From NCBI RefSeq assembly GCF_045679555.1, contig NC_092098.1, positions 21,110,038 to 21,174,037 of the forward strand: 64,000 bases of DNA. The letters run 5' to 3'. Both the position numbers and the translations under genes were made by a program. This stretch comes from Salvelinus alpinus. Lineage: Eukaryota > Chordata > Actinopteri > Salmoniformes > Salmonidae. The notes under the pieces were generated by a model that saw only the letters and a program-made list of their open reading frames with translations, was not told the DNA's origin and made no database searches. Below are positions 1 through 57,011 of the stretch, piece by piece. Each line of letters begins with the position of its first letter. Position 1 is the stretch's first letter.

Positions 1-308
1 AGACAAGGCCGAGTATAGCCCACAAAGATCTCCGCCACGGTACAACCCAAGGGGGGGCGCCAACCCAGACAGGAAGATCACATCAGTGACTCAACCCACT
101 CAATTGATGCACCCCTCCTAGGGACGGCATGATTGAGCACCAGTAAGCCAGTGACTCAGCCCCTGTAATAGAGGCAGAGAATCCCAGTGGAGAGAGGAGA
201 ACCGGCCAGGCAGAGACAGCAAGGGCGGTTTGTTGCTCCAGAGCCTTTCCGTTCACCTTCACACTCCTGGGCCAGACTACACTCAATCATATGACCCACA
301 GAAGAAAA
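1..308 (-). repeat. Fragment of a large dispersed teleost repeat (unit A)
   Basis: The text gccgagtatagcccacaaag and the following ~280 bases are a segment I recognise as very frequent in salmonid intergenic DNA, read here in reverse. It ends near 308, where Tc1-like sequence starts. In units B and C the fragment is longer because its other part starts exactly at the unit junction. The open frames within it are repeat text and not host genes. Confidence 0.6.
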
Positions 309-314
309 TTAAAA

Positions 315-1677
315 AAATCACATTTACATAACTATTCAGACCCTTTACTCAGTACTTTGTTGAAGCACCTTTGGCAGCGATTACAGCCTTGAGTCTTCTT
401 GGGTATGACGCTACAAGCTTGGCACACCTGTATTTGGGGAATTTCTCCCATTCTTCTCTGCGGATCCTCTCAAGCTCTGTCAGGGTGGATGGGGAGCGTT
501 GCTGTGCAGCTATTTTCAGGTCTCTCCAGAGATGTTCGATCGGGTGCAAGTACGGGCTCTGGCTGGACCCTCAAGGACATTCAGGGACTTGTCGCGAAGC
601 CACTCCTGCATTGTCTTGGCTGTGTGCTTAGGGTCGTTGTCCTGTTGGAAGGTGAACCGTCGCCCCAGTCTGAGGTCCTGAGCCCTCTGGAGCAGGTTTT
701 CATCAAGGATCTCTCTGTACTTTGCTCCATCCATCTTTGCCTCGATCCTGACTAGTCTCCCAGTCCCTGCCACTGAAAAACTTCCCTACAGCATGATGCT
801 GCCACCACCATGCTTCACCGTAGGGATGGTGGTAGGTTTCCAGACCAAAGAGTTCAATCTTGGTTTCATCAGACCAGAGAATCTTGTTTCTCATGGTCTG
901 AGAGTCTTTAGGTGCCTTTTGGCAAACTCCAAGTGGGTTGTCATGTGCCTTTTACTGAGGAGTGGCTTCCATTTGGCCACTCTACCATTAAGGCCTGATT
1001 GGTGGAGTGCTGCAGAGATGGTTACAGAGGAACCCTAGAGCTCTGTCAGAGTGACCATCGGGTTCTTGGTCACCTCCCTGACAAGGCCCTTCTCCGATTG
1101 CTCAGTTTGGCCGGGCGGCCAGCTCTAGGAAGAGTCTTGGTGGTTCCAAACTTCTTCCATTTAAGAATGAAGGAGGCCACTGTGTTCTTGGTTATGTTGA
1201 ATGCTGCAGACATTTTTTGGTACCCTTCCCCAGATCTGTGCCTCGACACAATCCTGTCTCGGGGCTCTACGAACAATTTGTTCAACGTCATTGCTTGGTT
1301 TTTGCTCTAACATGCACTGTCAACCGTGGAACCATATATAGACAGGTGTGTGCCTTTCCAAATCATGTCCAATCAATTGAATTTACTGCAGTTGGACTCC
1401 AATCAAGTTGTAGAAACACCTCAAGTATGATCAATGGAAACAGGATGCACCTGAGCTCAATTTTGAGTCTCATAGCAAAGGGTCTGAATATTTATGTAAA
1501 TAAGGTATTTTTTTAATACATTTGCAAACATTTCTAAAAACCTGTTTTCACTTTGTCATTATGGGGTATTGTGTGTAGATTGCTGAGGATTTAAAAATAT
1601 ATATATTTCAGAATAAGGCTGTAACGTAACAAAATGTGGAAAAGGTCAACGGGTCTGAATACTTTCCGAAGGCATAT
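315..1677 (-). mobile_element. Tc1-like DNA transposon relic (unit A)
   Basis: The minus strand carries transposase blocks of the Tc1/mariner DD34E type: an HTH region (1291-1070, RIVSRHRSGEGYQKMSAAFN), the first Asp block (SDETKIELFG, ~860), the second Asp block (QQDNDPKHTA, ~640) and the Glu block (MHPIEHLWRDLKIA, ~545). The blocks fall in different frames with stops between, so the gene is dead. The right end keeps the family terminus gggtctgaatactttccgaa (~1650-1670). On the left only the inner direct repeat (attcagaccctttac) remains; the outer terminus is missing, replaced by the dispersed repeat. It lies downstream of the trpc2 exon. Confidence 0.85.
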
Positions 1678-1921
1678 GAGATTAGGGAATAAAATGGTAA
1701 TAACATGGTAATAGTATGGTAACAAGTTATAGTTACAATTAAAACATTCATTGCCCAGTATGGTTGTATTCCTGTTCCAGGGTAATCTCGGTTTACCCAG
1801 AATTTAAATCTTGCATACTTTATTTTTACGTAGTCTGTCCAAGAGAGATTAGTTCCAGGGTAATGCACCACATACTTTGTGCATAGTGACTATATCGGCA
1901 TAAGCACAAACAGGATCTAAC

Positions 1922-2534
1922 CTTGAACTCAGGTTCCTTCTTGGAAGCTTACGGATCTCCCTTCCGAGGCCGAAGGCACTGAGCATGGCATTGTATGAGG
2001 TGATGGACAGATAGGCCATACTGTCAATGCCACGGTAGGTGTTGAGACAGGTAGAACTTCAGCAGGTCATGCTGCCGCCCATTCCAGCACTCTAGACAGG
2101 CACAGGTGATCTTGTGTGAATGTGGGATGACGTGGCCCTTCTAGGTCAGCATGGTGACAATCTCATACAGGTCCTTCTGACAGGCCAGGGTCAGCGGGAT
2201 CATGCCGGGGCAAACTGCAAGTCGTCAATGGAGTGGTCGAAAATGGCCAGGGAGAAGGATTGCACATCCATCTTGTTGCTCTTCTCCTGGTCCAGGCAGT
2301 TGAGGAGCATCTTCACCACACAGGGTTGATGGATGTCGATGGCGACCAGTAGAGCCTCATGGATCTGGGAGAAGTCAAAATTGTTGCCCAGGTGGATGGA
2401 CAGGTTGAGGGCCTCCAGCTGATGGATGATGCCGTCGCCAGGCTTCAGCAGGCCACACACCTTTATTATGTTCCTATCCTGGATGGCACCGATCCACGCC
2501 TCTTCATCTTCACCATCTCCTGCCATTGCTCTAG
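1922..2534 (-). pseudogene. trpc2: trpc2 ankyrin-region exon, disrupted (unit A)
   Basis: An acceptor (ttttag) at 2535 opens an exon whose ATG lies at 2526. The frame gives MAGDGEDEEAWIGAIQDRN, then ankyrin-like text (EALLVAIDIHQPCVVKMLL) typical of the N-terminus of TRPC channels, then LACQKDLYEIVTMLT, KITCACLEC, NTYRG and KEPEFK in shifted frames. The exon ends at a GT donor after KEPEFK (1922). TRPC2 is the pheromone-sensing cation channel of vomeronasal and microvillous olfactory neurons. The frame is lost: one base is missing near 2203-2212 (Phe-Ala-Pro-Gly-Met region), a TAG stands at 2141-2143, bases are missing near 2044-2060 in the Leu-Ser-Arg-Ile-Asn region, and one near 1937. The rest of the gene would lie left of position 1. 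A functional second salmonid ohnolog elsewhere is possible. Confidence 0.8.
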
Positions 2535-4028
2535 CTAAAACCACAAGGAGACACAGAGAGTTCATTGCTTTGATATTTCTGAATCCAAACCATAAATTAA
2601 TACAAAAATGTATAATAAAACTGCAAAACACAAATCACTATTAAATCATTTGTTTGCACTGGGTAGTCTACAGATGAACATTAAGATATTCATAAAGGAA
2701 ATTTGTGAGTACCATGCAGTATCAAGGTATGACACAGGACAAAATAGCCTTATAATCTGAGAAATTAACAGGAATAAACATTATGAAGACATAAGTAGAC
2801 AAAATGTAATGTTACTATGAAGACCACCCCTAGATGAAATTGCAAGATACTATCAAGACCATCAGTAATAATAGCTTTCTATTCTAGTAAATCTGTTCAT
2901 ATTCATTCCTGTCATTTTTCTTCATTGTATGCATTTTGTTTACTGCTTTTCAAATCATTTGTAGTCTCATTGTAAAGCACTTTGAGCTGCAAATAATGTA
3001 TGAAAGAAGATTTACAATTTAAGTTTATTATTGCAGTATTAAACTAAATTGACCTACATTCTACTACAAAATTCATACCTTACTTCTTGACACATTTTAC
3101 ATCATATTTCAATCTATTGTTTCACATATTTTCTTTGCCAAGTTTTTTCAAATACACTAACCTTGAGGTTTCCCATTGTTTCTTTAGTGAAAGTGACAGA
3201 CAGTAATTGTCCGTAATGTGAGGTTACATTAAATTGGTGGAAATCCAAGCGCCCTGGTTAATCGAGGCTAAGAGCTTGGTAGGAGAGAACGGCAGTGAGG
3301 TCCACTGACTGCTGTTTGGGCTCAGTGTCAAGAACGGCTCACTGTGGTAATGTGCTCTCGGCTGACTACACAGGTTAGGTTGGTTAGAATGTCTCGCCAC
3401 AAACCAAGTAACACATCTCTACTCCCCTGGGACAGGACTAATTAAAAAGCAACCATTTCAGTGTTACACACATGGCAAGGCCCAAACCAGGGAGTGGCCC
3501 TTGCCTTCCATACCAAGCCTCTTAACATTATCACTGGAAATGCTCCCCAGTGGAAACACTGCAGATGAGACAGTGTTAACAGGTAGCAGGAGTAATTAAC
3601 ATTCCCTGTGCAACAAGTTGTGGTGAAAAAAAACAAGGAACAGCCAAGACAAAATAAATCACAGTTAATTTAATTGATAATTTCAATTATGTGATAACTT
3701 CCGAAAAAATATGTACTGAACACAGTCTATGATTGATGCTGTTTATAGTATACAATATATTATAGGTCATCATTAGCACATAGCATGTGTAAACAGTGCA
3801 AGAACAAACCGCCTTCAATGAGCTCAGGAGAGAACCAATCACTCAGAGCAGAGTGGGGAATAGAGGTAGACAGAGAGAGATTCGTTATTTTTCCAGGTAT
3901 ATAGCTACAGAACAAGTCAGTAAAATACAAATATACATACAGTATATTAAAAACAAAAGATTATCCACGTTTGCTGCACTGCCCACTGATTAAAAGCAAA
4001 AACGTGTTACTATACAATGCATTCTTTC
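2535..4028. other. Spacer between the trpc2 exon and the xndc1 stop in unit A (same in B and C)
   Basis: AT-rich sequence of about 1.5 kb without a recognisable exon. The stretch near 2975-3005 (gtaaagcactttgagc) resembles the 3' tail of teleost retroposons, but no full element could be delimited. The equivalents are 10401-11894 in B and 18266-19759 in C. Confidence 0.5.
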
Positions 4029-5440
4029 CTAGTCCACCCAGATAACATGGGGGTCCACGGGGTCTCCACAGGTGCTGGCGTGCATCTGGATGTGGGACAG
4101 AGGGAACCTGAAGGAGCAGAGAGGGCAGGGCACCATGGACTCTTCTAGGCTGGCGGGAGAGACAGGGAAGGGGCGGGGAACAGGGGTCACAATCCCCCCA
4201 GGGAGCTTCCTGGTCTCCACCTGCTGGCAGGAGGCGGCGTGGAGCGGCAGGTACTCTGCAGTAAAGAACACTGCAGCATAGAGAAAGAACAGACAACGGG
4301 TGTCAATACTACTGTTGATTGTAACAGTGAATCAATATACAGTATGTCATACAGTCCACGAAGAGACAGAATAAGAAGCCAACAAACACACCTCCGCATA
4401 TTGGGCATGTGGTCTCAAGGTCACCAGTGTCCTGAGGCTCTGGAGATGGGTGAGGATAAGGGGCTGTGGCAGTGTGTTGTAGAGTAGCTATTGGCCTCTT
4501 ACTGACTGCAGGTTTTCCGTGCTTACTAGAGGTGGTGCCATTCAGCTGGTTCTGCCTGGGAGGGAGGTAAAGAACAGAGATTCATGCTGAGAGATACTTG
4601 TGAGCTAGAAGTTGCTCCTATGTGCAGATCCAGGATAAGCTTACCCTCCCAAAATGATCCATGGGGTGGAGTATAGAGGAATACCTGCTTTTGGAGTTTG
4701 GTTTTCTCTTCAGGTGTCTTTGAGAAGTATTTTCCTTGGAGCTGCAAACTGTGCTTAAACAAGCCATTGAAGCTGAAAAACATCACAACTAATCATTTGT
4801 CAAGCTTAGTGTTGCCCAAAAAAATTACCAAGCAAAATGCATGGTATTTCTGAGAGCTGAGGTGTTTACCTGTGTGAGGGTGTATATTTCCCATATTTCC
4901 AACTGGCTTGCCTTTGTTGGGTGTAGCTGTATGAGCCCCTGGCTTTCCCTGGTTGGGGATATGGGTAGTTGCATCTGGCTTGGCTGTGGGAGTGGAAGAG
5001 GTTGCTGTATTCTGAGTGCCAGAGAATGATGTGTGACTGGGAGACAAGGAAGTGGAAGGAAGGGGAAGGGAACGCCTGGCAGCCTGGGACGCTGTGAGGA
5101 CCATACGAGCTGTCCGGCTCAGAACCACACCCTCCCTGACAGCAGAGGGAGACAAACCAAGGTGTAGGTGATTTTCTGTAAAAGTATTTATTAATTCAAT
5201 GCTGTCTAATCTGTTTGACAGTGCCTCATACAGAACTCAAAATTCCTCCACTTACCCTTTCATTCCCCCAAAGAAGGTTCTCTGCACAGCAGGGCTGGAC
5301 AGCCATTCTCTCACGCCTGATGCCGATTTGTCTGGGGTTGTCTGAATAGAGAGAAGGTCAAAGGAGAGAGAGTGAGAATACAAGCACACACTTCTGGCCT
5401 CTGATGTTTACCAATAATACATATCTCTTGTATATTCCCA

Positions 5441-5703
5441 AATTATAAACTGGGTTGTTCAAGCCCTGAATGCTGATTGGCTGACATACTACTGGTATGA
5501 CAAAACATTTATTTTTACTGCTCTAATTACGTTGGTAACCAGTTTATAATAGCAATAAGGCACCTCGGGGGTTTGTGGTATATGACCAATATACCACGGC
5601 TAGGGGCTGTGTCCAGGCACTCAGCGATGAGTCACGGATAATAACAGCCTTTAGCTGTGGTATATTGTCCATATATCACACCCCCTTGTGCCTTACTGCT
5701 TAA
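5441..5703. repeat. Salmonid palindromic MITE in xndc1 (also 13307-13569, 21172-21434)
   Basis: The second half is a hairpin: gcaataaggcacctcggggg near 5551 pairs with cccccttgtgccttactgct near 5680, and ggtatatgaccaatatacca is itself self-complementary. The first half (aattataaactgggttgttc) is the standard leader of this repeat in salmonids. It lies in an xndc1 intron. No coding capacity. Confidence 0.7.
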
Positions 5704-5753
5704 GACTATACACACTTACATTCATCTCATAACAGTCCAAATCGATCACCATA

Positions 5754-5915
5754 GGGTCGTTCCATATGATTTCAATCACCTAAAATCAGATTTTCACAAA
5801 TGTTGTAGCTTAAACCCTTACATCTGAAGTGTTTGTATTGTGCCCGTTATCGGTTGAGACACAGTATACTCTTGAATACAGGGTAAAAGTGAATGAAATC
5901 GTATGGAACAACCCC
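5754..5915. repeat. Short inverted-repeat element (MITE-like); also 13620-13781, 21485-21646
   Basis: The left end gggtcgttccatatgatttc and the right end gaaatcgtatggaacaaccc are inverted copies with few mismatches, enclosing ~110 bases of non-coding sequence. The total of 162 bp without an ORF fits a non-autonomous DNA element. Confidence 0.65.
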
Positions 5916-5954
5916 ATAAGACAAATCTACAACTCTTATCTGTTTTAAATATAA

Positions 5955-6202
5955 TTCAGTCATTTAGCAGATGCTTGTAACCAGAACAATACTTTGTGGG
6001 GGGGGTGGGGGTAAGACAGATGTCTTAATTAACATACTATTTGAAGAGGTAGGGTTCAAACTTTTTCGCAGGATGGGCAGGGACTCTGCTGTCCTAGCAT
6101 CAGGGGGAAGCTGGTTCCACCATTGGGGTGCCAGGACAGAGGAGAGCTTTGACTGGGCTGAGCGGGAGCTGACCTCCCGTAGGGGTGGGTGGACCAAGAG
6201 AC
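5955..6202. repeat. Dispersed teleost repeat fragment (also 13821-14068, 21686-21933)
   Basis: Text such as ctggttccaccattggggtg is a common salmonid repeat segment. It yields an apparent minus-strand 77-codon frame (SVLAPQWWNQLPPDARTAES) that resembles the C-terminal end of LINE polymerases. I read it as a repeat fragment. The run of G's at 5998-6011 belongs to it. Confidence 0.5.
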
Positions 6203-7015
6203 CTGGGCCCAGTTTCCCAAAAGCATCTTAAGGCTAAGTTCATCGTTAGGACCTCCGTAGGAGCAATGTTAAATCCCTCAGCTGTTTCCCAAAACCATCG
6301 TTATTAACGTTGAACTTGAAAACGCTTGTGATGTAACACCTGCCTCAGACCACTATTAGAACAACCAAGTGCATTGTTAAGATGCTTTTTGCCCTCCTAT
6401 GTCACTTTATACAGAGAAGATCTCCGCTAAACATAGAATCACGTGGTTTATCCGTCTCTCTGTGACCACCAATGACCAGAAAAAAGTTGACTACAATACA
6501 AAGTTCCCAATGTCTTTGCAATTGATACAAACAAGTGATGTATAAAAAGACACTTCAAATGAAAATATAAACAGTAAACTACAGACTCATGTTCAATCAT
6601 TTTGTTTATATTCTGGTACTTGTAGGCTACTGTCTGTAAGTCTCAATATATTTCATGTGTAGTCTAACATGTGGGCAATGATGTGACAAATTGGTGATTT
6701 AGTGCATTTTTATAGGGTAAGCATTAGAATAAGCCACCTCGATATTTGCAGCCGTAGGTGGTAATATCTTTCTAGTAGCTATTCCGTCGTCAAGTATTGT
6801 GAAATAATTATAATGTTAAGGTAAGATTTGAGTGGAGAAAGCTGACCCGAGAGCAGCGCTCCCTTTCTTTTGATCCTATCAGTATCAACACACGCTCTAA
6901 CAACGCACTTAACGATTGTTCTCTCTGCATGGTGTTTTGGGAAACGCATGTTATATCTTTGGATTTTGTAAGAAAGATGCAACAAGGTCTACTGCTATCA
7001 GGAAACCGGGCCCAG
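6203..7015. repeat. Possible 0.8-kb non-autonomous DNA element with 15-bp terminal inverted repeats (also 14069-14881, 21934-22746)
   Basis: The left end ctgggcccagtttcc (6203-6217) and the right end ggaaaccgggcccag (7001-7015) are inverted copies with one mismatch. A second inner pair, tttcccaaaa and ttttgggaaa, adds to it. The interior is AT-rich with no transposase. I saw no clear target duplication, so the family is undecided. Confidence 0.5.
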
Positions 7016-7673
7016 AGGTGTTCTCTGCAATTTACTGTACTGTTCTCTCTGAAGAGTTCACTGCCAAGCCCTCAGTCTATACACACACCTGACCCTGGTT
7101 CTCTTTGCAAGTCTGTGTGGAGCCCTCCTCGCTCTCCTCCAGGGGGCTGCGGATGCGCAGGAAGGACAGGCCAAACTGAGAGCGCTTGTTAAAAGGCTGA
7201 GTGCAGGTTACTCTCACCCGGTCCCAGCTGTCCTCTGCACCTTCTGACAGGAAATCACCTGGAGGGGGGGGGGGTCAATTGTTTTGACTAAAGGAGGGTT
7301 ACTAAAGAAGCATCTTCGGACACTGATTCTCATTCCCTTCATCTATATTGCATGACATATCAGTCCTACTATTGTCATAGGGCTGAGATCCATCCAGTCT
7401 ATCTGGTCTCACCTTTCTTGAACATTCTCACTCCTGTCAGCCCAGTGCCCTGTCGCGATTCTGCTGGACTCATCAGTGTTGCTGTTGGCAACAGGGTGAT
7501 ATAGGGCTGGTCCAGGGGCCAAGAGGACCGGCCAACATCAATCTGAATGAACGCAGATCCAAAGTTCCCTACAAATTACACAGCAAGTTGGGAAACGGTC
7601 ATTAAATTGTATGGAACATCAAAACAAAACGATAACAGTGTCCCATTGTGTGTTTACTACAATACATAAACTT

Positions 7674-8174
7674 AGCCCCCCGACACATAAACTACTGCAG
7701 CATAAATACTGGAGGCTGAGACATTAGGGGTCAGGAGACACTGTGGCCCCATCCGATGATACCCCCGGACAGGGCCAAACAGGAAGGATATAACCCCACC
7801 CACTTTGCCAAAGCACAGCCCCCACACCACTAGAGGGATAGCTTCAACCACCAACTTACCATCCTGAGACAAGGCCGAGTATAGCCCACAAAGATCTCCG
7901 CCACGGTACAACCCAAGGGGGGGCGCCAACCCAGACAGGAAGATCACATCAGTGACTCAACCCACTCAATTGATGCACCCCTCCTAGGGACGGCATGATT
8001 GAGCACCAGTAAGCCAGTGACTCAGCCCCTGTAATAGAGGCAGAGAATCCCAGTGGAGAGAGGAGAACCGGCCAGGCAGAGACAGCAAGGGCGGTTTGTT
8101 GCTCCAGAGCCTTTCCGTTCACCTTCACACTCCTGGGCCAGACTACACTCAATCATATGACCCACAGAAGAAAA
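7674..8174 (-). repeat. Dispersed teleost repeat fragment starting at the A/B junction
   Basis: The fragment begins at the junction base 7674 (agccccccgacacataaac) and runs to about 8174, next to the Tc1-like element. Its sharp left edge at the junction means that the duplication breakpoint lies at or in this repeat. Confidence 0.6.
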
Positions 8175-8180
8175 TTAAAA

Positions 8181-9543
8181 AAATCACATTTACATAACTA
8201 TTCAGACCCTTTACTCAGTACTTTGTTGAAGCACCTTTGGCAGCGATTACAGCCTTGAGTCTTCTTGGGTATGACGCTACAAGCTTGGCACACCTGTATT
8301 TGGGGAATTTCTCCCATTCTTCTCTGCGGATCCTCTCAAGCTCTGTCAGGGTGGATGGGGAGCGTTGCTGTGCAGCTATTTTCAGGTCTCTCCAGAGATG
8401 TTCGATCGGGTGCAAGTACGGGCTCTGGCTGGACCCTCAAGGACATTCAGGGACTTGTCGCGAAGCCACTCCTGCATTGTCTTGGCTGTGTGCTTAGGGT
8501 CGTTGTCCTGTTGGAAGGTGAACCGTCGCCCCAGTCTGAGGTCCTGAGCCCTCTGGAGCAGGTTTTCATCAAGGATCTCTCTGTACTTTGCTCCATCCAT
8601 CTTTGCCTCGATCCTGACTAATCTCCCAGTCCCTGCCACTGAAAAACTTCCCTACAGCATGATGCTGCCACCACCATGCTTCACCGTAGGGATGGTGGTA
8701 GGTTTCCAGACCAAAGAGTTCAATCTTGGTTTCATCAGACCAGAGAATCTTGTTTCTCATGGTCTGAGAGTCTTTAGGTGCCTTTTGGCAAACTCCAAGT
8801 GGGTTGTCATGTGCCTTTTACTGAGGAGTGGCTTCCATTTGGCCACTCTACCATTAAGGCCTGATTGGTGGAGTGCTGCAGAGATGGTTACAGAGGAACC
8901 CTAGAGCTCTGTCAGAGTGACCATCGGGTTCTTGGTCACCTCCCTGACAAGGCCCTTCTCCGATTGCTCAGTTTGGCCGGGCGGCCAGCTCTAGGAAGAG
9001 TCTTGGTGGTTCCAAACTTCTTCCATTTAAGAATGAAGGAGGCCACTGTGTTCTTGGTTATGTTGAATGCTGCAGACATTTTTTGGTACCCTTCCCCAGA
9101 TCTGTGCCTCGACACAATCCTGTCTCGGGGCTCTACGAACAATTTGTTCAACGTCATTGCTTGGTTTTTGCTCTAACATGCACTGTCAACCGTGGAACCA
9201 TATATAGACAGGTGTGTGCCTTTCCAAATCATGTCCAATCAATTGAATTTACTGCAGTTGGACTCCAATCAAGTTGTAGAAACACCTCAAGTATGATCAA
9301 TGGAAACAGGATGCACCTGAGCTCAATTTTGAGTCTCATAGCAAAGGGTCTGAATATTTATGTAAATAAGGTATTTTTTTAATACATTTGCAAACATTTC
9401 TAAAAACCTGTTTTCACTTTGTCATTATGGGGTATTGTGTGTAGATTGCTGAGGATTTAAAAATATATATATTTCAGAATAAGGCTGTAACGTAACAAAA
9501 TGTGGAAAAGGTCAACGGGTCTGAATACTTTCCGAAGGCATAT
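8181..9543 (-). mobile_element. Tc1-like DNA transposon relic (unit B)
   Basis: Copy of the unit A element, with the same broken transposase frames and the same lost left terminus. One residue differs from unit A (WEISQ instead of WETSQ at ~8618), a change shared with unit C. It was carried by the tandem duplication and is not a separate insertion. Confidence 0.85.
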
Positions 9544-9787
9544 GAGATTAGGGAATAAAATGGTAATAACATGGTAATAGTATGGTAACAAGTTATAGTT
9601 ACAATTAAAACATTCATTGCCCAGTATGGTTGTATTCCTGTTCCAGGGTAATCTCGGTTTACCCAGAATTTAAATCTTGCATACTTTATTTTTACGTAGT
9701 CTGTCCAAGAGAGATTAGTTCCAGGGTAATGCACCACATACTTTGTGCATAGTGACTATATCGGCATAAGCACAAACAGGATCTAAC

Positions 9788-10400
9788 CTTGAACTCAGGT
9801 TCCTTCTTGGAAGCTTACGGATCTCCCTTCCGAGGCCGAAGGCACTGAGCATGGCATTGTATGAGGTGATGGACAGATAGGCCATACTGTCAATGCCACG
9901 GTAGGTGTTGAGACAGGTAGAACTTCAGCAGGTCATGCTGCCGCCCATTCCAGCACTCTAGACAGGCACAGGTGATCTTGTGTGAATGTGGGATGACGTG
10001 GCCCTTCTAGGTCAGCATGGTGACAATCTCATACAGGTCCTTCTGACAGGCCAGGGTCAGCGGGATCATGCCGGGGCAAACTGCAAGTCGTCAATGGAGT
10101 GGTCGAAAATGGCCAGGGAGAAGGATTGCACATCCATCTTGTTGCTCTTCTCCTGGTCCAGGCAGTTGAGGAGCATCTTCACCACACAGGGTTGATGGAT
10201 GTCGATGGCGACCAGTAGAGCCTCATGGATCTGGGAGAAGTCAAAATTGTTGCCCAGGTGGATGGACAGGTTGAGGGCCTCCAGCTGATGGATGATGCCG
10301 TCGCCAGGCTTCAGCAGGCCACACACCTTTATTATGTTCCTATCCTGGATGGCACCGATCCACGCCTCTTCATCTTCACCATCTCCTGCCATTGCTCTAG
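9788..10400 (-). pseudogene. trpc2: trpc2 ankyrin-region exon, disrupted (unit B)
   Basis: This copy of the damaged exon carries the same missing base and the same TAG (10007-10009) as unit A. It is followed on the minus strand by the unit junction and then xndc1 exon 3 of unit A, not by further trpc2 exons, so it is an isolated exon. The damage was therefore present before the unit was copied, unless conversion spread it. Confidence 0.8.
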
Positions 10401-11894
10401 CTAAAACCACAAGGAGACACAGAGAGTTCATTGCTTTGATATTTCTGAATCCAAACCATAAATTAATACAAAAATTTATAATAAAACTGCAAAACACAAA
10501 TCACTATTAAATCATTTGTTTGCACTGGGTAGTCTACAGATGAACATTAAGATATTCATAAAGGAAATTTGTGAGTAGCATGCAGTATCAAGGTATGACA
10601 CAGGACAAAATAGCCTTATAATCTGAGAAATTAACAGGAATAAACATTATGAAGACATAAGTAGACAAAATGTAATGTTACTATGAAGACCACCCCTAGA
10701 TGAAATTGCAAGATACTATCAAGACCATCAGTAATAATAGCTTTCTATTCTAGTAAATCTGTTCATATTCATTCCTGTCATTTTTCTTCATTGTATGCAT
10801 TTTGTTTACTGCTTTTCAAATCATTTGTAGTCTCATTGTAAAGCACTTTGAGCTGCAAATAATGTATGAAAGAAGATTTACAATTTAAGTTTATTATTGC
10901 AGTATTAAACTAAATTGACCTACATTCTACTACAAAATTCATACCTTACTTCTTGACACATTTTACATCATATTTCAATCTATTGTTTCACATATTTTCT
11001 TTGCCAAGTTTTTTCAAATACACTAACCTTGAGGTTTCCCATTGTTTCTTTAGTGAAAGTGACAGACAGTAATTGTCCGTAATGTGAGGTTACATTAAAT
11101 TGGTGGAAATCCAAGCGCCCTGGTTAATCGAGGCTAAGAGCTTGGTAGGAGAGAACGGCAGTGAGGTCCACTGACTGCTGTTTGGGCTCAGTGTCAAGAA
11201 CGGCTCACTGTGGTAATGTGCTCTCGGCTGACTACACAGGTTAGGTTGGTTAGAATGTCTCGCCACAAACCAAGTAACACATCTCTACTCCCCTGGGACA
11301 GGACTAATTAAAAAGCAACCATTTCAGTGTTACACACATGGCAAGGCCCAAACCAGGGAGTGGCCCTTGCCTTCCATACCAAGCCTCTTAACATTATCAC
11401 TGGAAATGCTCCCCAGTGGAAACACTGCAGATGAGACAGTGTTAACAGGTAGCAGGAGTAATTAACATTCCCTGTGCAACAAGTTGTGGTGAAAAAAAAC
11501 AAGGAACAGCCAAGACAAAATAAATCACAGTTAATTTAATTGATAATTTCAATTATGTGATAACTTCCGAAAAAATATGTACTGAACACAGTCTATGATT
11601 GATGCTGTTTATAGTATACAATATATTATAGGTCATCATTAGCACATAGCATGTGTAAACAGTGCAAGAACAAACCGCCTTCAATGAGCTCAGGAGAGAA
11701 CCAATCACTCAGAGCAGAGTGGGGAATAGAGGTAGACAGAGAGAGATTCGTTATTTTTCCAGGTATATAGCTACAGAACAAGTCAGTAAAATACAAATAT
11801 ACATACAGTATATTAAAAACAAAAGATTATCCACGTTTGCTGCACTGCCCACTGATTAAAAGCAAAAACGTGTTACTATACAATGCATTCTTTC

Positions 11895-14800
11895 CTAGTC
11901 CACCCAGATAACATGGGGGTCCACGGGGTCTCCACAGGTGCTGGCGTGCATCTGGATGTGGGACAGAGGGAACCTGAAGGAGCAGAGAGGGCAGGGCACC
12001 ATGGACTCTTCTAGGCTGGCGGGAGAGACAGGGAAGGGGCGGGGAACAGGGGTCACAATCCCCCCAGGGAGCTTCCTGGTCTCCACCTGCTGGCAGGAGG
12101 CGGCGTGGAGCGGCAGGTACTCTGCAGTAAAGAACACTGCAGCATAGAGAAAGAACAGACAACGGGTGTCAATACTACTGTTGATTGTAACAGTGAATCA
12201 ATATACAGTATGTCATACAGTCCACGAAGAGACAGAATAAGAAGCCAACAAACACACCTCCGCATATTGGGCATGTGGTCTCAAGGTCACCAGTGTCCTG
12301 AGGCTCTGGAGATGGGTGAGGATAAGGGGCTGTGGCAGTGTGTTGTAGAGTAGCTATTGGCCTCTTACTGACTGCAGGTTTTCCGTGCTTACTAGAGGTG
12401 GTGCCATTCAGCTGGTTCTGCCTGGGAGGGAGGTAAAGAACAGAGATTCATGCTGAGAGATACTTGTGAGCTAGAAGTTGCTCCTATGTGCAGATCCAGG
12501 ATAAGCTTACCCTCCCAAAATGATCCATGGGGTGGAGTATAGAGGAATACCTGCTTTTGGAGTTTGGTTTTCTCTTCAGGTGTCTTTGAGAAGTATTTTC
12601 CTTGGAGCTGCAAACTGTGCTTAAACAAGCCATTGAAGCTGAAAAACATCACAACTAATCATTTGTCAAGCTTAGTGTTGCCCAAAAAAATTACCAAGCA
12701 AAATGCATGGTATTTCTGAGAGCTGAGGTGTTTACCTGTGTGAGGGTGTATATTTCCCATATTTCCAACTGGCTTGCCTTTGTTGGGTGTAGCTGTATGA
12801 GCCCCTGGCTTTCCCTGGTTGGGGATATGGGTAGTTGCATCTGGCTTGGCTGTGGGAGTGGAAGAGGTTGCTGTATTCTGAGTGCCAGAGAATGATGTGT
12901 GACTGGGAGACAAGGAAGTGGAAGGAAGGGGAAGGGAACGCCTGGCAGCCTGGGACGCTGTGAGGACCATACGAGCTGTCCGGCTCAGAACCACACCCTC
13001 CCTGACAGCAGAGGGAGACAAACCAAGGTGTAGGTGATTTTCTGTAAAAGTATTTATTAATTCAATGCTGTCTAATCTGTTTGACAGTGCCTCATACAGA
13101 ACTCAAAATTCCTCCACTTACCCTTTCATTCCCCCAAAGAAGGTTCTCTGCACAGCAGGGCTGGACAGCCATTCTCTCACGCCTGATGCCGATTTGTCTG
13201 GGGTTGTCTGAATAGAGAGAAGGTCAAAGGAGAGAGAGTGAGAATACAAGCACACACTTCTGGCCTCTGATGTTTACCAATAATACATATCTCTTGTATA
13301 TTCCCAAATTATAAACTGGGTTGTTCAAGCCCTGAATGCTGATTGGCTGACATACTACTGGTATGACAAAACATTTATTTTTACTGCTCTAATTACGTTG
13401 GTAACCAGTTTATAATAGCAATAAGGCACCTCGGGGGTTTGTGGTATATGACCAATATACCACGGCTAGGGGCTGTGTCCAGGCACTCAGCGATGAGTCA
13501 CGGATAATAACAGCCTTTAGCTGTGGTATATTGTCCATATATCACACCCCCTTGTGCCTTACTGCTTAAGACTATACACACTTACATTCATCTCATAACA
13601 GTCCAAATCGATCACCATAGGGTCGTTCCATATGATTTCAATCACCTAAAATCAGATTTTCACAAATGTTGTAGCTTAAACCCTTACATCTGAAGTGTTT
13701 GTATTGTGCCCGTTATCGGTTGAGACACAGTATACTCTTGAATACAGGGTAAAAGTGAATGAAATCGTATGGAACAACCCCATAAGACAAATCTACAACT
13801 CTTATCTGTTTTAAATATAATTCAGTCATTTAGCAGATGCTTGTAACCAGAACAATACTTTGTGGGGGGGGTGGGGGTAAGACAGATGTCTTAATTAACA
13901 TACTATTTGAAGAGGTAGGGTTCAAACTTTTTCGCAGGATGGGCAGGGACTCTGCTGTCCTAGCATCAGGGGGAAGCTGGTTCCACCATTGGGGTGCCAG
14001 GACAGAGGAGAGCTTTGACTGGGCTGAGCGGGAGCTGACCTCCCGTAGGGGTGGGTGGACCAAGAGACCTGGGCCCAGTTTCCCAAAAGCATCTTAAGGC
14101 TAAGTTCATCGTTAGGACCTCCGTAGGAGCAATGTTAAATCCCTCAGCTGTTTCCCAAAACCATCGTTATTAACGTTGAACTTGAAAACGCTTGTGATGT
14201 AACACCTGCCTCAGACCACTATTAGAACAACCAAGTGCATTGTTAAGATGCTTTTTGCCCTCCTATGTCACTTTATACAGAGAAGATCTCCGCTAAACAT
14301 AGAATCACGTGGTTTATCCGTCTCTCTGTGACCACCAATGACCAGAAAAAAGTTGACTACAATACAAAGTTCCCAATGTCTTTGCAATTGATACAAACAA
14401 GTGATGTATAAAAAGACACTTCAAATGAAAATATAAACAGTAAACTACAGACTCATGTTCAATCATTTTGTTTATATTCTGGTACTTGTAGGCTACTGTC
14501 TGTAAGTCTCAATATATTTCATGTGTAGTCTAACATGTGGGCAATGATGTGACAAATTGGTGATTTAGTGCATTTTTATAGGGTAAGCATTAGAATAAGC
14601 CACCTCGATATTTGCAGCCGTAGGTGGTAATATCTTTCTAGTAGCTATTCCGTCGTCAAGTATTGTGAAATAATTATAATGTTAAGGTAAGATTTGAGTG
14701 GAGAAAGCTGACCCGAGAGCAGCGCTCCCTTTCTTTTGATCCTATCAGTATCAACACACGCTCTAACAACGCACTTAACGATTGTTCTCTCTGCATGGTG

Positions 14801-15433
14801 TTTTGGGAAACGCATGTTATATCTTTGGATTTTGTAAGAAAGATGCAACAAGGTCTACTGCTATCAGGAAACCGGGCCCAGAGGTGTTCTCTGCAATTTA
14901 CTGTACTGTTCTCTCTGAAGAGTTCACTGCCAAGCCCTCAGTCTATACACACACCTGACCCTGGTTCTCTTTGCAAGTCTGTGTGGAGCCCTCCTCGCTC
15001 TCCTCCAGGGGGCTGCGGATGCGCAGGAAGGACAGGCCAAACTGAGAGCGCTTGTTAAAAGGCTGAGTGCAGGTTACTCTCACCCGGTCCCAGCTGTCCT
15101 CTGCACCTTCTGACAGGAAATCACCTGGAGGGGGGGGGGTCAATTGTTTTGACTAAAGGAGGGTTACTAAAGAAGCATCTTCGGACACTGATTCTCATTC
15201 CCTTCATCTATATTGCATGACATATCAGTCCTACTATTGTCATAGGGCTGAGATCCATCCAGTCTATCTGGTCTCACCTTTCTTGAACATTCTCACTCTT
15301 GTCAGCCCAGTGCCCTGTCGCGATTCTGCTGGACTCATCAGTGTTGCTGTTGGCAACAGGGTGATATAGGGCTGGTCCAGGGGCCAAGAGGACCGGCCAA
15401 CATCAATCTGAATGAACGCAGATCCAAAGTTCC
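11895..15433 (-). pseudogene. xndc1: Second copy of xndc1 exons 3-9 (unit B), lacking exons 1-2
   Basis: The seven 3' exons of xndc1 recur here with unchanged reading frames and splice sites: exon 3 at 15433-15278, last exon ending in the stop at 11895. Exons 1 and 2 and the promoter were not duplicated, so the copy has no start of its own. It could be reached only by read-through splicing from unit C, or be silent. The coding text equals unit C wherever I compared translated frames. The intron 3 G-run directly before exon 4's acceptor is one base shorter. I label it a partial gene copy because nothing inside its exons is visibly broken. Confidence 0.85.
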
Positions 15434-15538
15434 CTACAAATTACACAGCAAGTTGGGAAACGGTCATTAAATTGTATGGAACATCAAAACAAAACGATAA
15501 CAGTGTCCCATTGTGTGTTTACTACAATACATAAACTT

Positions 15539-16039
15539 AGCCCCCCGACACATAAACTACTGCAGCATAAATACTGGAGGCTGAGACATTAGGGGTCAGG
15601 AGACACTGTGGCCCCATCCGATGATACCCCCGGACAGGGCCAAACAGGAAGGATATAACCCCACCCACTTTGCCAAAGCACAGCCCCCACACCACTAGAG
15701 GGATAGCTTCAACCACCAACTTACCATCCTGAGACAAGGCCGAGTATAGCCCACAAAGATCTCCGCCACGGTACAACCCAAGGGGGGGCGCCAACCCAGA
15801 CAGGAAGATCACATCAGTGACTCAACCCACTCAATTGATGCACCCCTCCTAGGGACGGCATGATTGAGCACCAGTAAGCCAGTGACTCAGCCCCTGTAAT
15901 AGAGGCAGAGAATCCCAGTGGAGAGAGGAGAACCGGCCAGGCAGAGACAGCAAGGGCGGTTTGTTGCTCCAGAGCCTTTCCGTTCACCTTCACACTCCTG
16001 GGCCAGACTACACTCAATCATATGACCCACAGAAGAAAA
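15539..16039 (-). repeat. Dispersed teleost repeat fragment starting at the B/C junction
   Basis: Same fragment as at 7674-8174, with the same edge at the unit junction. The next element is again the Tc1-like relic. Confidence 0.6.
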
Positions 16040-16045
16040 TTAAAA

Positions 16046-17408
16046 AAATCACATTTACATAACTATTCAGACCCTTTACTCAGTACTTTGTTGAAGCACC
16101 TTTGGCAGCGATTACAGCCTTGAGTCTTCTTGGGTATGACGCTACAAGCTTGGCACACCTGTATTTGGGGAATTTCTCCCATTCTTCTCTGCGGATCCTC
16201 TCAAGCTCTGTCAGGGTGGATGGGGAGCGTTGCTGTGCAGCTATTTTCAGGTCTCTCCAGAGATGTTCGATCGGGTGCAAGTACGGGCTCTGGCTGGACC
16301 CTCAAGGACATTCAGGGACTTGTCGCGAAGCCACTCCTGCATTGTCTTGGCTGTGTGCTTAGGGTCGTTGTCCTGTTGGAAGGTGAACCGTCGCCCCAGT
16401 CTGAGGTCCTGAGCCCTCTGGAGCAGGTTTTCATCAAGGATCTCTCTGTACTTTGCTCCATCCATCTTTGCCTCGATCCTGACTAATCTCCCAGTCCCTG
16501 CCACTGAAAAACTTCCCTACAGCATGATGCTGCCACCACCATGCTTCACCGTAGGGATGGTGGTAGGTTTCCAGACCAAAGAGTTCAATCTTGGTTTCAT
16601 CAGACCAGAGAATCTTGTTTCTCATGGTCTGAGAGTCTTTAGGTGCCTTTTGGCAAACTCCAAGTGGGTTGTCATGTGCCTTTTACTGAGGAGTGGCTTC
16701 CATTTGGCCACTCTACCATTAAGGCCTGATTGGTGGAGTGCTGCAGAGATGGTTACAGAGGAACCCTAGAGCTCTGTCAGAGTGACCATCGGGTTCTTGG
16801 TCACCTCCCTGACAAGGCCCTTCTCCGATTGCTCAGTTTGGCCGGGCGGCCAGCTCTAGGAAGAGTCTTGGTGGTTCCAAACTTCTTCCATTTAAGAATG
16901 AAGGAGGCCACTGTGTTCTTGGTTATGTTGAATGCTGCAGACATTTTTTGGTACCCTTCCCCAGATCTGTGCCTCGACACAATCCTGTCTCGGGGCTCTA
17001 CGAACAATTTGTTCAACGTCATTGCTTGGTTTTTGCTCTAACATGCACTGTCAACCGTGGAACCATATATAGACAGGTGTGTGCCTTTCCAAATCATGTC
17101 CAATCAATTGAATTTACTGCAGTTGGACTCCAATCAAGTTGTAGAAACACCTCAAGTATGATCAATGGAAACAGGATGCACCTGAGCTCAATTTTGAGTC
17201 TCATAGCAAAGGGTCTGAATATTTATGTAAATAAGGTATTTTTTTAATACATTTGCAAACATTTCTAAAAACCTGTTTTCACTTTGTCATTATGGGGTAT
17301 TGTGTGTAGATTGCTGAGGATTTAAAAATATATATATTTCAGAATAAGGCTGTAACGTAACAAAATGTGGAAAAGGTCAACGGGTCTGAATACTTTCCGA
17401 AGGCATAT
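16046..17408 (-). mobile_element. Tc1-like DNA transposon relic (unit C)
   Basis: Third copy of the same insertion, equal to unit B at the one site where unit A differs. The shared truncation of its left end shows that a single ancestral insertion predates the triplication. Confidence 0.85.
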
Positions 17409-17652
17409 GAGATTAGGGAATAAAATGGTAATAACATGGTAATAGTATGGTAACAAGTTATAGTTACAATTAAAACATTCATTGCCCAGTATGGTTGTAT
17501 TCCTGTTCCAGGGTAATCTCGGTTTACCCAGAATTTAAATCTTGCATACTTTATTTTTACGTAGTCTGTCCAAGAGAGATTAGTTCCAGGGTAATGCACC
17601 ACATACTTTGTGCATAGTGACTATATCGGCATAAGCACAAACAGGATCTAAC

Positions 17653-18265
17653 CTTGAACTCAGGTTCCTTCTTGGAAGCTTACGGATCTCCCTTCCGAGG
17701 CCGAAGGCACTGAGCATGGCATTGTATGAGGTGATGGACAGATAGGCCATACTGTCAATGCCACGGTAGGTGTTGAGACAGGTAGAACTTCAGCAGGTCA
17801 TGCTGCCGCCCATTCCAGCACTCTAGACAGGCACAGGTGATCTTGTGTGAATGTGGGATGACGTGGCCCTTCTAGGTCAGCATGGTGACAATCTCATACA
17901 GGTCCTTCTGACAGGCCAGGGTCAGCGGGATCATGCCGGGGCAAACTGCAAGTCGTCAATGGAGTGGTCGAAAATGGCCAGGGAGAAGGATTGCACATCC
18001 ATCTTGTTGCTCTTCTCCTGGTCCAGGCAGTTGAGGAGCATCTTCACCACACAGGGTTGATGGATGTCGATGGCGACCAGTAGAGCCTCATGGATCTGGG
18101 AGAAGTCAAAATTGTTGCCCAGGTGGATGGACAGGTTGAGGGCCTCCAGCTGATGGATGATGCCGTCGCCAGGCTTCAGCAGGCCACACACCTTTATTAT
18201 GTTCCTATCCTGGATGGCACCGATCCACGCCTCTTCATCTTCACCATCTCCTGCCATTGCTCTAG
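17653..18265 (-). pseudogene. trpc2: trpc2 ankyrin-region exon, disrupted (unit C)
   Basis: This is the third copy, with the same frameshift and in-frame TAG (17872-17874). It lies about 1.5 kb downstream of the intact xndc1 stop at 19760, which matches the mammalian Xndc1-Trpc2 order. No further trpc2 exon follows before the next unit begins at 15538. Confidence 0.8.
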
Positions 18266-19759
18266 CTAAAACCACAAGGAGACACAGAGAGTTCATTGCT
18301 TTGATATTTCTGAATCCAAACCATAAATTAATACAAAAATGTATAATAAAACTGCAAAACACAAATCACTATTAAATCATTTGTTTGCACTGGGTAGTCT
18401 ACAGATGAACATTAAGATATTCATAAAGGAAATTTGTGAGTAGCATGCAGTATCAAGGTATGACACAGGACAAAATAGCCTTATAATCTGAGAAATTAAC
18501 AGGAATAAACATTATGAAGACATAAGTAGACAAAATGTAATGTTACTATGAAGACCACCCCTAGATGAAATTGCAAGATACTATCAAGACCATCAGTAAT
18601 AATAGCTTTCTATTCTAGTAAATCTGTTCATATTCATTCCTGTCATTTTTCTTCATTGTATGCATTTTGTTTACTGCTTTTCAAATCATTTGTAGTCTCA
18701 TTGTAAAGCACTTTGAGCTGCAAATAATGTATGAAAGAAGATTTACAATTTAAGTTTATTATTGCAGTATTAAACTAAATTGACCTACATTCTACTACAA
18801 AATTCATACCTTACTTCTTGACACATTTTACATCATATTTCAATCTATTGTTTCACATATTTTCTTTGCCAAGTTTTTTCAAATACACTAACCTTGAGGT
18901 TTCCCATTGTTTCTTTAGTGAAAGTGACAGACAGTAATTGTCCGTAATGTGAGGTTACATTAAATTGGTGGAAATCCAAGCGCCCTGGTTAATCGAGGCT
19001 AAGAGCTTGGTAGGAGAGAACGGCAGTGAGGTCCACTGACTGCTGTTTGGGCTCAGTGTCAAGAACGGCTCACTGTGGTAATGTGCTCTCGGCTGACTAC
19101 ACAGGTTAGGTTGGTTAGAATGTCTCGCCACAAACCAAGTAACACATCTCTACTCCCCTGGGACAGGACTAATTAAAAAGCAACCATTTCAGTGTTACAC
19201 ACATGGCAAGGCCCAAACCAGGGAGTGGCCCTTGCCTTCCATACCAAGCCTCTTAACATTATCACTGGAAATGCTCCCCAGTGGAAACACTGCAGATGAG
19301 ACAGTGTTAACAGGTAGCAGGAGTAATTAACATTCCCTGTGCAACAAGTTGTGGTGAAAAAAAACAAGGAACAGCCAAGACAAAATAAATCACAGTTAAT
19401 TTAATTGATAATTTCAATTATGTGATAACTTCCGAAAAAATATGTACTGAACACAGTCTATGATTGATGCTGTTTATAGTATACAATATATTATAGGTCA
19501 TCATTAGCACATAGCATGTGTAAACAGTGCAAGAACAAACCGCCTTCAATGAGCTCAGGAGAGAACCAATCACTCAGAGCAGAGTGGGGAATAGAGGTAG
19601 ACAGAGAGAGATTCGTTATTTTTCCAGGTATATAGCTACAGAACAAGTCAGTAAAATACAAATATACATACAGTATATTAAAAACAAAAGATTATCCACG
19701 TTTGCTGCACTGCCCACTGATTAAAAGCAAAAACGTGTTACTATACAATGCATTCTTTC

Positions 19760-22700
19760 CTAGTCCACCCAGATAACATGGGGGTCCACGGGGTCTCCAC
19801 AGGTGCTGGCGTGCATCTGGATGTGGGACAGAGGGAACCTGAAGGAGCAGAGAGGGCAGGGCACCATGGACTCTTCTAGGCTGGCGGGAGAGACAGGGAA
19901 GGGGCGGGGAACAGGGGTCACAATCCCCCCAGGGAGCTTCCTGGTCTCCACCTGCTGGCAGGAGGCGGCGTGGAGCGGCAGGTACTCTGCAGTAAAGAAC
20001 ACTGCAGCATAGAGAAAGAACAGACAACGGGTGTCAATACTACTGTTGATTGTAACAGTGAATCAATATACAGTATGTCATACAGTCCACGAAGAGACAG
20101 AATAAGAAGCCAACAAACACACCTCCGCATATTGGGCATGTGGTCTCAAGGTCACCAGTGTCCTGAGGCTCTGGAGATGGGTGAGGATAAGGGGCTGTGG
20201 CAGTGTGTTGTAGAGTAGCTATTGGCCTCTTACTGACTGCAGGTTTTCCGTGCTTACTAGAGGTGGTGCCATTCAGCTGGTTCTGCCTGGGAGGGAGGTA
20301 AAGAACAGAGATTCATGCTGAGAGATACTTGTGAGCTAGAAGTTGCTCCTATGTGCAGATCCAGGATAAGCTTACCCTCCCAAAATGATCCATGGGGTGG
20401 AGTATAGAGGAATACCTGCTTTTGGAGTTTGGTTTTCTCTTCAGGTGTCTTTGAGAAGTATTTTCCTTGGAGCTGCAAACTGTGCTTAAACAAGCCATTG
20501 AAGCTGAAAAACATCACAACTAATCATTTGTCAAGCTTAGTGTTGCCCAAAAAAATTACCAAGCAAAATGCATGGTATTTCTGAGAGCTGAGGTGTTTAC
20601 CTGTGTGAGGGTGTATATTTCCCATATTTCCAACTGGCTTGCCTTTGTTGGGTGTAGCTGTATGAGCCCCTGGCTTTCCCTGGTTGGGGATATGGGTAGT
20701 TGCATCTGGCTTGGCTGTGGGAGTGGAAGAGGTTGCTGTATTCTGAGTGCCAGAGAATGATGTGTGACTGGGAGACAAGGAAGTGGAAGGAAGGGGAAGG
20801 GAACGCCTGGCAGCCTGGGACGCTGTGAGGACCATACGAGCTGTCCGGCTCAGAACCACACCCTCCCTGACAGCAGAGGGAGACAAACCAAGGTGTAGGT
20901 GATTTTCTGTAAAAGTATTTATTAATTCAATGCTGTCTAATCTGTTTGACAGTGCCTCATACAGAACTCAAAATTCCTCCACTTACCCTTTCATTCCCCC
21001 AAAGAAGGTTCTCTGCACAGCAGGGCTGGACAGCCATTCTCTCACGCCTGATGCCGATTTGTCTGGGGTTGTCTGAATAGAGAGAAGGTCAAAGGAGAGA
21101 GAGTGAGAATACAAGCACACACTTCTGGCCTCTGATGTTTACCAATAATACATATCTCTTGTATATTCCCAAATTATAAACTGGGTTGTTCAAGCCCTGA
21201 ATGCTGATTGGCTGACATACTACTGGTATGACAAAACATTTATTTTTACTGCTCTAATTACGTTGGTAACCAGTTTATAATAGCAATAAGGCACCTCGGG
21301 GGTTTGTGGTATATGACCAATATACCACGGCTAGGGGCTGTGTCCAGGCACTCAGCGATGAGTCACGGATAATAACAGCCTTTAGCTGTGGTATATTGTC
21401 CATATATCACACCCCCTTGTGCCTTACTGCTTAAGACTATACACACTTACATTCATCTCATAACAGTCCAAATCGATCACCATAGGGTCGTTCCATATGA
21501 TTTCAATCACCTAAAATCAGATTTTCACAAATGTTGTAGCTTAAACCCTTACATCTGAAGTGTTTGTATTGTGCCCGTTATCGGTTGAGACACAGTATAC
21601 TCTTGAATACAGGGTAAAAGTGAATGAAATCGTATGGAACAACCCCATAAGACAAATCTACAACTCTTATCTGTTTTAAATATAATTCAGTCATTTAGCA
21701 GATGCTTGTAACCAGAACAATACTTTGTGGGGGGGGTGGGGGTAAGACAGATGTCTTAATTAACATACTATTTGAAGAGGTAGGGTTCAAACTTTTTCGC
21801 AGGATGGGCAGGGACTCTGCTGTCCTAGCATCAGGGGGAAGCTGGTTCCACCATTGGGGTGCCAGGACAGAGGAGAGCTTTGACTGGGCTGAGCGGGAGC
21901 TGACCTCCCGTAGGGGTGGGTGGACCAAGAGACCTGGGCCCAGTTTCCCAAAAGCATCTTAAGGCTAAGTTCATCGTTAGGACCTCCGTAGGAGCAATGT
22001 TAAATCCCTCAGCTGTTTCCCAAAACCATCGTTATTAACGTTGAACTTGAAAACGCTTGTGATGTAACACCTGCCTCAGACCACTATTAGAACAACCAAG
22101 TGCATTGTTAAGATGCTTTTTGCCCTCCTATGTCACTTTATACAGAGAAGATCTCCGCTAAACATAGAATCACGTGGTTTATCCGTCTCTCTGTGACCAC
22201 CAATGACCAGAAAAAAGTTGACTACAATACAAAGTTCCCAATGTCTTTGCAATTGATACAAACAAGTGATGTATAAAAAGACACTTCAAATGAAAATATA
22301 AACAGTAAACTACAGACTCATGTTCAATCATTTTGTTTATATTCTGGTACTTGTAGGCTACTGTCTGTAAGTCTCAATATATTTCATGTGTAGTCTAACA
22401 TGTGGGCAATGATGTGACAAATTGGTGATTTAGTGCATTTTTATAGGGTAAGCATTAGAATAAGCCACCTCGATATTTGCAGCCGTAGGTGGTAATATCT
22501 TTCTAGTAGCTATTCCGTCGTCAAGTATTGTGAAATAATTATAATGTTAAGGTAAGATTTGAGTGGAGAAAGCTGACCCGAGAGCAGCGCTCCCTTTCTT
22601 TTGATCCTATCAGTATCAACACACGCTCTAACAACGCACTTAACGATTGTTCTCTCTGCATGGTGTTTTGGGAAACGCATGTTATATCTTTGGATTTTGT

Positions 22701-23876
22701 AAGAAAGATGCAACAAGGTCTACTGCTATCAGGAAACCGGGCCCAGAGGTGTTCTCTGCAATTTACTGTACTGTTCTCTCTGAAGAGTTCACTGCCAAGC
22801 CCTCAGTCTATACACACACCTGACCCTGGTTCTCTTTGCAAGTCTGTGTGGAGCCCTCCTCGCTCTCCTCCAGGGGGCTGCGGATGCGCAGGAAGGACAG
22901 GCCAAACTGAGAGCGCTTGTTAAAAGGCTGAGTGCAGGTTACTCTCACCCGGTCCCAGCTGTCCTCTGCACCTTCTGACAGGAAATCACCTGGAGGGGGG
23001 GGGGGTCAATTGTTTTGACTAAAGGAGGGTTACTAAAGAAGCATCTTCGGACACTGATTCTCATTCCCTTCATCTATATTGCATGACATATCAGTCCTAC
23101 TATTGTCATAGGGCTGAGATCCATCCAGTCTATCTGGTCTCACCTTTCTTGAACATTCTCACTCCTGTCAGCCCAGTGCCCTGTCGCGATTCTGCTGGAC
23201 TCATCAGTGTTGCTGTTGGCAACAGGGTGATATAGGGCTGGTCCAGGGGCCAAGAGGACCGGCCAACATCAATCTGAATGAACGCAGATCCAAAGTTCCC
23301 TACAAATTACACAGCAAGTTGGGAAACGGTCATTAAATTGTATGGAACATCAAAACAAAACGATAACAGTGTCCCATTGTGTGTTTACTACAATACATAA
23401 ACTTCGTTGTCAATATTGATGAGCCTTACCCACATCGATGTATCCAAAGTATGAGGCTCGCTCCAGCTGCAGTTCTGCTCTGAGGACTCCACTTCGGTCC
23501 TGGGGGTTGCACAGCCACGACCTGCTGTCTCCACCCACAACACACAGGTTCTCCACACAGTTCTTGGGGTCCTGCACCATTTCAATATAATTAACTAGGA
23601 GCTACATGTATAGCTACTGATGCAACCCATGTGACATGGCTACAAACGCTGTTCAGTAGCTGAATATTTCTCATCATGCCAAATACATTTCGTTAATGCT
23701 AGCTGCCTAGATAATTTAACTACCTAACGTTACTGAGTTTCTAACTATAGTTAGCTAGCTACTCATTGCTAGCTAGCCCTAGTCTACTTGCAGTAAGCTA
23801 AGTTAGTTGACAGTTAAATACACGAACTTACCTGTGACGTGAATGAAACGACGTGTTTAATTTTCAATGGGGCCAT
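19760..23876 (-). CDS. xndc1: xndc1: XRCC1 N-terminal domain-containing protein with two UBZ4-like zinc fingers (nine exons)
   Basis: Exons read on the minus strand are 23876-23832, 23571-23430, 23299-23144, 22989-22820, 21072-20987, 20866-20601, about 20519-20416, 20282-20123 and 20001-19760. Phases agree and give 456 residues ending in VIWVD and a stop. Residues 1 to ~160 match the XRCC1 N-terminal fold (start MAPLKIKHVVSFTSQ; core QIDVGRSSWPLDQPYI; later EDSWDRVRVTCTQPF). Next come RTFF and SRTARMVL blocks and a Ser/Thr/Pro/Lys-rich linker. Two zinc fingers close the protein: CPIC...HAASC (~372-391) and CPLC...HASTC (~425-444), both of Rad18/UBZ4 pattern. A role in DNA-break repair is inferred from the XRCC1 and UBZ domains. 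In mouse the homologous exons are joined to Trpc2. Here a stop ends the frame before trpc2. The start of exon 7 is the weakest point: the better-looking acceptor at 20503 would break the frame. Confidence 0.85.
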
Positions 23877-24091
23877 ATTAAGGTAAAATTAATTAGCTGT
23901 TTGTTTATGTAAAATCCAAGAGACCATCAGCTGTACAGTTTGTTACTCGTACTTTTTTCCCGCCACCAGAAAACAACCACTGCTGTGCGTGTTGACAAAC
24001 GGAAAAGGAACTCGCGTGCAGTGTTTAGATTGGCCCTTCGGTTTCCCAAACCGGAAATGGCATGCGCTAGGAATTAACAGCACTCCCGAAG
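23877..24091. promoter_or_regulatory. Divergent promoter between xndc1 and rnf121
   Basis: Only 215 bp separate the xndc1 start codon (minus, 23876) from the rnf121 start codon (plus, 24092). The interval has ETS-like accggaaatg (~24050) and gaagatggcggggg over the rnf121 start, which fits a YY1 element placed at a start codon. No TATA box is obvious for either gene. This is typical of housekeeping bidirectional promoters. Confidence 0.6.
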
Positions 24092-36400
<12,309 letters not shown>

Positions 36401-57010: not shown

Positions 57011-57011
57011 T

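Follow-up and report, generated by a model that had tools for sequence, protein, structure and literature searches.

The 64,000-nt window (the whole stretch of DNA analysed here) opens inside a head-to-tail array of at least three units of about 7.87 kb, which we consider to be probably a genuine and evolutionarily young tandem duplication with three or more copies. Self-BLAST aligned positions 1-15538 with 7867-23404 at 99.949% identity (6 mismatches and 2 gap openings), and positions 1-7673 with 15732-23404 at 99.974% (2 mismatches); given this length and identity, chance resemblance between the units is not an issue. The two internal junctions (7673/7674 and 15538/15539) were identical to each other over 60 bases on each side, and the right border of the array falls at 23404/23405. 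There were no N bases in the window and the copies of the unit were free of gaps. Thus both features of a true tandem duplication, a base-exact repeated junction and gap-free copies, were found. An earlier note on this DNA had described three near-identical head-to-tail units that differ by four single bases and one homopolymer length, and had placed the junctions and the end of the array at these same positions; self-BLAST and MAFFT confirmed all of this. Its term "triplication" is right for the units in view, but not as a count, since unit 1 is cut by the start of the window, lacking its first 193 bases, and the array begins somewhere to the left of the window, so that three is a minimum. 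Tandem Repeats Finder, for which the longest detectable period was 500, returned no rows, and ARAGORN found no tRNA genes. The coordinates of the units and of the features within them are given in Table 1.

Table 1. Positions of the tandem units, the coding exons of xndc1 and other features of the repeated unit.
Feature	Position	Strand	Other copies	Remarks	Method
Tandem unit 1	1-7673			7673 nt; left-cut at the window edge, 193 bases absent	self-BLAST, MAFFT
Tandem unit 2	7674-15538			7865 nt	self-BLAST, MAFFT
Tandem unit 3	15539-23404			7866 nt; last unit, adjoins the unique right flank	self-BLAST, MAFFT
xndc1 coding exon 1	23832-23876	-		unique, outside the array; donor GTAAGT	
xndc1 exon 2	23430-23571	-		unique, outside the array	
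xndc1 exon 3	23144-23299 (unit 3)	-	15278-15433 (Gly to Arg), 7413-7568		
xndc1 exon 4	22820-22989 (unit 3)	-	14955-15124, 7089-7258		
xndc1 exon 5	20987-21072 (unit 3)	-	13122-13207, 5256-5341		
xndc1 exon 6	20601-20866 (unit 3)	-	12736-13001, 4870-5135		
xndc1 exon 7	20416-20503 (unit 3)	-	12551-12638, 4685-4772		
xndc1 exon 8	20123-20286 (unit 3)	-	12258-12421, 4392-4555		
xndc1 exon 9	19760-20001 (unit 3)	-	11895-12136, 4029-4270	last coding exon, with stop	
trpc2-like ankyrin-region exon remnant	17620-18306 (unit 3)	-	one in each unit	approximate limits	
Transposon copy	16073-17405 (unit 3)		one in every unit		self-comparison
Left end of unit	15539-16050 (unit 3)			candidate repeat	

A three-way MAFFT alignment gave 5 variable columns among the 7673 common to all units, and none among the 193 columns present in units 2 and 3 only. 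Four of the variable sites are substitutions and the fifth is the length of a G run. Unit 1 has private states at 755 (G versus A) and 2712 (C versus G), unit 2 at 10476 (T versus G), at 15299 (T versus C) and in the G run beside 15129, and unit 3 has none. The absence of a private state from unit 3 is unremarkable, since five differences spread evenly over three units would leave one or more of the units with no difference about 38% of the time. Together the five sites define three distinct unit sequences that fit one tree without conflict. On the plus strand the run consists of 10 G in unit 2 (15130-15139) and 11 G in unit 3 (22995-23005), and this length difference falls within the pyrimidine tract that immediately precedes the acceptor of xndc1 exon 4. 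A single one of the four substitutions is a coding change, 15299 in unit 2, which is a missense (Gly to Arg) in the copy of xndc1 exon 3; coding bases make up 1172 of the 7866 bases of the unit.

The gene that the array cuts into, xndc1, lies on the minus strand and could be modelled with nine coding exons, GT-AG dinucleotides at all eight introns and an open frame of 452 codons to the stop. When residues 1-169 of the model were used as a Pfam query, residues 1-150 matched the XRCC1_N family (PF01834) over profile positions 1-148 of 148 (E 1e-48). Every unit contains exons 3-9 of this gene, including the stop, together with one trpc2-like exon. The right edge of the array lies within intron 2, separated by 105 bases from exon 3 downstream of it, so that a complete xndc1 is retained from exons 1 and 2 together with unit 3. 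Exons 3-9 in units 1 and 2 are bounded by the same AG and GT dinucleotides, and 13 of these 14 exon copies are identical to those of unit 3; exons 1 and 2 are missing from both units, so the copies they carry are truncated at the 5′ end. The complete gene would then consist of the promoter, exons 1 and 2 and unit 3, whereas the copies in units 1 and 2 would be expected to be inert or to be transcribed by read-through only. Most likely the array has no effect on the xndc1 protein. The earlier note had put the array "inside xndc1-trpc2". This is correct insofar as the array covers exons 3-9 of xndc1 and a broken trpc2-like exon, but the name merges what have been argued to be two genes (PMC3170594, in its available part), and the full xndc1 frame survives at the right-hand side.

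The arrangement of the exons would allow a different outcome, in which read-through splicing gives one long xndc1 protein whose length is set by the copy number of the array. Exons 3-8 together measure 930 nt, and this block is in phase 1 at either end, so that splicing exon 8 directly to exon 3 in the following unit, with exon 9 skipped, would keep the frame open for 1072 residues over three units. Roughly one block in three would have a length divisible by three by chance alone. Exons 1 and 2 encode residues 1-62 of XRCC1_N and the block begins inside this domain, so that any added module would be without the start of the domain; moreover, every unit contains an exon 9 complete with AG acceptor and stop. 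For these two reasons, that no unit lacks a terminal exon and that the block starts within XRCC1_N, we regard such a protein as scarcely credible.

Next to xndc1, each unit carries the remnant of an ankyrin-region exon, for which the name trpc2 is our assumption, made from the character of the sequence and from its position beside xndc1. The remnant has a nonsense codon and frame breaks, and so is not the open ankyrin-region exon that a functional TRPC2 would have. As none of the five variable sites falls within it or its copies, the lesions are common to all three units, which indicates that the exon was dead before the array formed. In a search of PDB the second piece of the remnant matched TRP channel chains, the best being TRP-gamma (E 3.2e-8) followed in order by TRPC4, 5, 3, 6 and 1; at E values up to 1 there were 58 sequences, with weaker ankyrin and designed-repeat chains among them. 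The first piece gave only two chance-level PDB matches, to aspartyl-tRNA synthetase (E 0.49), and Pfam listed no family for either piece at E 0.001. The membrane-spanning exons of TRPC2 would lie to the left of the window.

The remainder of the unit includes a transposon, presumably Tc1-like, which has relatives elsewhere in the window at 34687-36077 and 57011-58360, and a left end that we take to be a dispersed salmonid repeat. No second copy of this left end was found in 23405-64000, and a search of viral_contigs with 32 bases from near it gave no exact copy.

The unit would thus run from intron 2 of xndc1 past the end of that gene, through the dead trpc2-like exon and the presumed Tc1-like transposon, and into the repeat. 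We propose that the array could have arisen in two steps, of which the first would be the fusion of two sequences that share no notable homology, via end joining or template switching, and the second an unequal crossing-over between identical 7.87-kb copies, taking the number from two to three or more. Homology of the unit start to the unit end or the right flank, as a cause of the first duplication, was not found in the visible sequence: in four of four comparisons of 300 bases, on either strand, there was no excess over shuffles, since the local scores were 18, 17, 16 and 16, the shuffled sequences had a median of 17 in every comparison, and no score reached the 95% level. The 9-base ACATAAACT, which occurs near both ends of the unit, was also considered as the point of crossover and was rejected because the junction retains both copies of it. 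Likewise, an origin of unit 2 as the fresh product of a crossover between units 1 and 3 is unsupported, as unit 2 has three private states.

The divergence between units amounts to 1.7e-4 per site per branch (95% interval 0.47e-4 to 4.4e-4), calculated from four substitutions on three branches of 7673 bases. With assumed rates of 1e-8 and 2e-9, the array would be about 17,000 or 87,000 generations old, respectively; gene conversion would make these ages underestimates, and any errors among the differences would make them overestimates.

The near-identity of the units bears out the view, expressed in the earlier note, that either recency or an error of assembly must explain the array. The same base-exact junction is present twice without a gap, so at least one junction should be real; and with three distinct unit sequences, two single-copy haplotypes are insufficient to generate the array unless a mosaic or errors are also invoked. 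On these two grounds the sequence makes a purely false duplication less likely than a true one. An assembler could nevertheless have over-expanded a locus that truly has one or two copies, by repeating the unit or by laying haplotypes in series. The 99.95% identity of the units is compatible with this, and so is the presence of a homopolymer length among the five differences, as errors of this kind are common in sequencing. At none of the five variable sites do units 1 and 2 agree, which would also suit two haplotypes with unit 3 as a mosaic consensus, but to derive unit 3 from the other two would need three switches along the five sites. False duplications are also documented, making up 0.3 to 15.9% of the sequence in six vertebrate assemblies (PMC9516828, in its available part). 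The marks of such duplications are gaps between the copies, most often though not always, a read depth lowered to half or less, and discordant reads; no gap is present here. The array resembles the described cases in having near-identical adjacent copies on one scaffold that can be annotated as extra genes, but differs in being gap-free, in its three copies as against pairs, and in its base-identical junctions. Even a loop in the assembly graph would presumably require at least one read-supported junction, and this would make two true copies, or circular DNA, likely. For this reason "at least two copies" would be a firmer statement than "three", and over-expansion, taken together with the absence of gaps, the two identical junctions and the three distinct units, seems to us unlikely, if worth keeping in mind.

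Another reading is an older array held identical by gene conversion, which is common among adjacent copies in tandem arrays. However, it is not needed to explain the data, since all five differences are confined to single units and there is no sign of a converted tract; in addition, a long-lived array might have been expected to have degraded units at its edges, and the unit at the right edge, the one edge in view, is intact. We therefore think conversion a distinctly improbable explanation. Returning to a true and young duplication, a refinement compatible with it is that copy number still segregates as a polymorphism in the species, other individuals having one, two or more units. Young arrays of nearly identical units readily change in number through unequal crossing-over, and the very low divergence between the units would fit an unfixed state; from the one sequence analysed, we regard this as about as likely as not.

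To the right of the array, the start codons of xndc1 and of a plus-strand gene, which we assume to be rnf121, are arranged head to head with about 215 bases between them (23876-24094), and this spacing suggests a shared promoter. Pfam gave no family in the three frames taken as exons of the putative rnf121. Two direct repeats of 168 bases (24429-24596 and 29059-29226), which are 100% identical, flank an open frame of 1382 aa on the minus strand (24763-28911) with reverse transcriptase, RNase H and integrase domains. The whole looks like a very young LTR retrotransposon, presumably Gypsy-like, and may sit in intron 1 of the plus-strand gene; the five bases immediately beyond one repeat do not match those beyond the other. 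Further mobile elements are represented by an intact LINE-like open frame of 1108 aa on the plus strand (50928-54254), with endonuclease/exonuclease/phosphatase and reverse transcriptase domains, and by another transposase piece, a DDE_3 endonuclease match (63388-63675, plus strand; E 5.5e-8). Pieces of an NLR-type immune gene were seen on the minus strand at 44438-46636, with FISNA (E 7.1e-19), NACHT, NOD2 winged helix and NLRC4 HD2 matches, and a PYRIN domain in a second frame. FISNA is the fish-specific NACHT-associated domain, and its presence supports a fish, presumably a salmonid, as the source of this DNA. A frame at 38576-38896 (plus strand) weakly resembled an IL18BP-like Pfam family of viral type (E 0.0061, short of the curated cut-off), and this would fit il18bp, which we believe to be a neighbour at this locus.

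It has been argued that XNDR (which is xndc1) and TRPC2 are separate genes that lie next to each other in vertebrates, teleosts included, and that the joined XNDR-TRPC2 transcript of mouse may be biologically irrelevant; TRPC2 is reported to be disabled in several lineages, in which XNDR can persist (PMC3170594, available part). The locus described here is similar in that its nine coding exons equal in number exons 2-10 of platypus XNDR, which hold the complete coding sequence, and in that the trpc2-like exon is broken while xndc1 is open. It differs in that only one trpc2-like exon was recognised in the window, and in the array itself, of which the available part of the same paper makes no mention. 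In Atlantic salmon, a trpc2 with a missense variant is placed beside rrm1 on chromosome 13, and numa1 is on chromosome 11; the word "tandem" is absent from the main text of that paper, as available (PMC4982270). Among the matches listed in a search of full-text literature there was no array at the xndc1-trpc2 locus, which is weak evidence of its absence from print.

Recent tandem segmental duplications typically consist of head-to-tail copies with more than 99.9% identity that carry part of a gene, and the array is like them in everything but its phase-symmetric block of exons. It is an ordinary kind of event, and mainly a warning for annotation: automatic methods can annotate units 1 and 2 as additional xndc1 or "xndc1-trpc2" genes that do not exist, and short reads from the three copies can stack into false heterozygous sites. 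If the array is real and unfixed, it provides a convenient copy-number marker. The early death of the trpc2-like exon bears on which copies of trpc2 fish keep.
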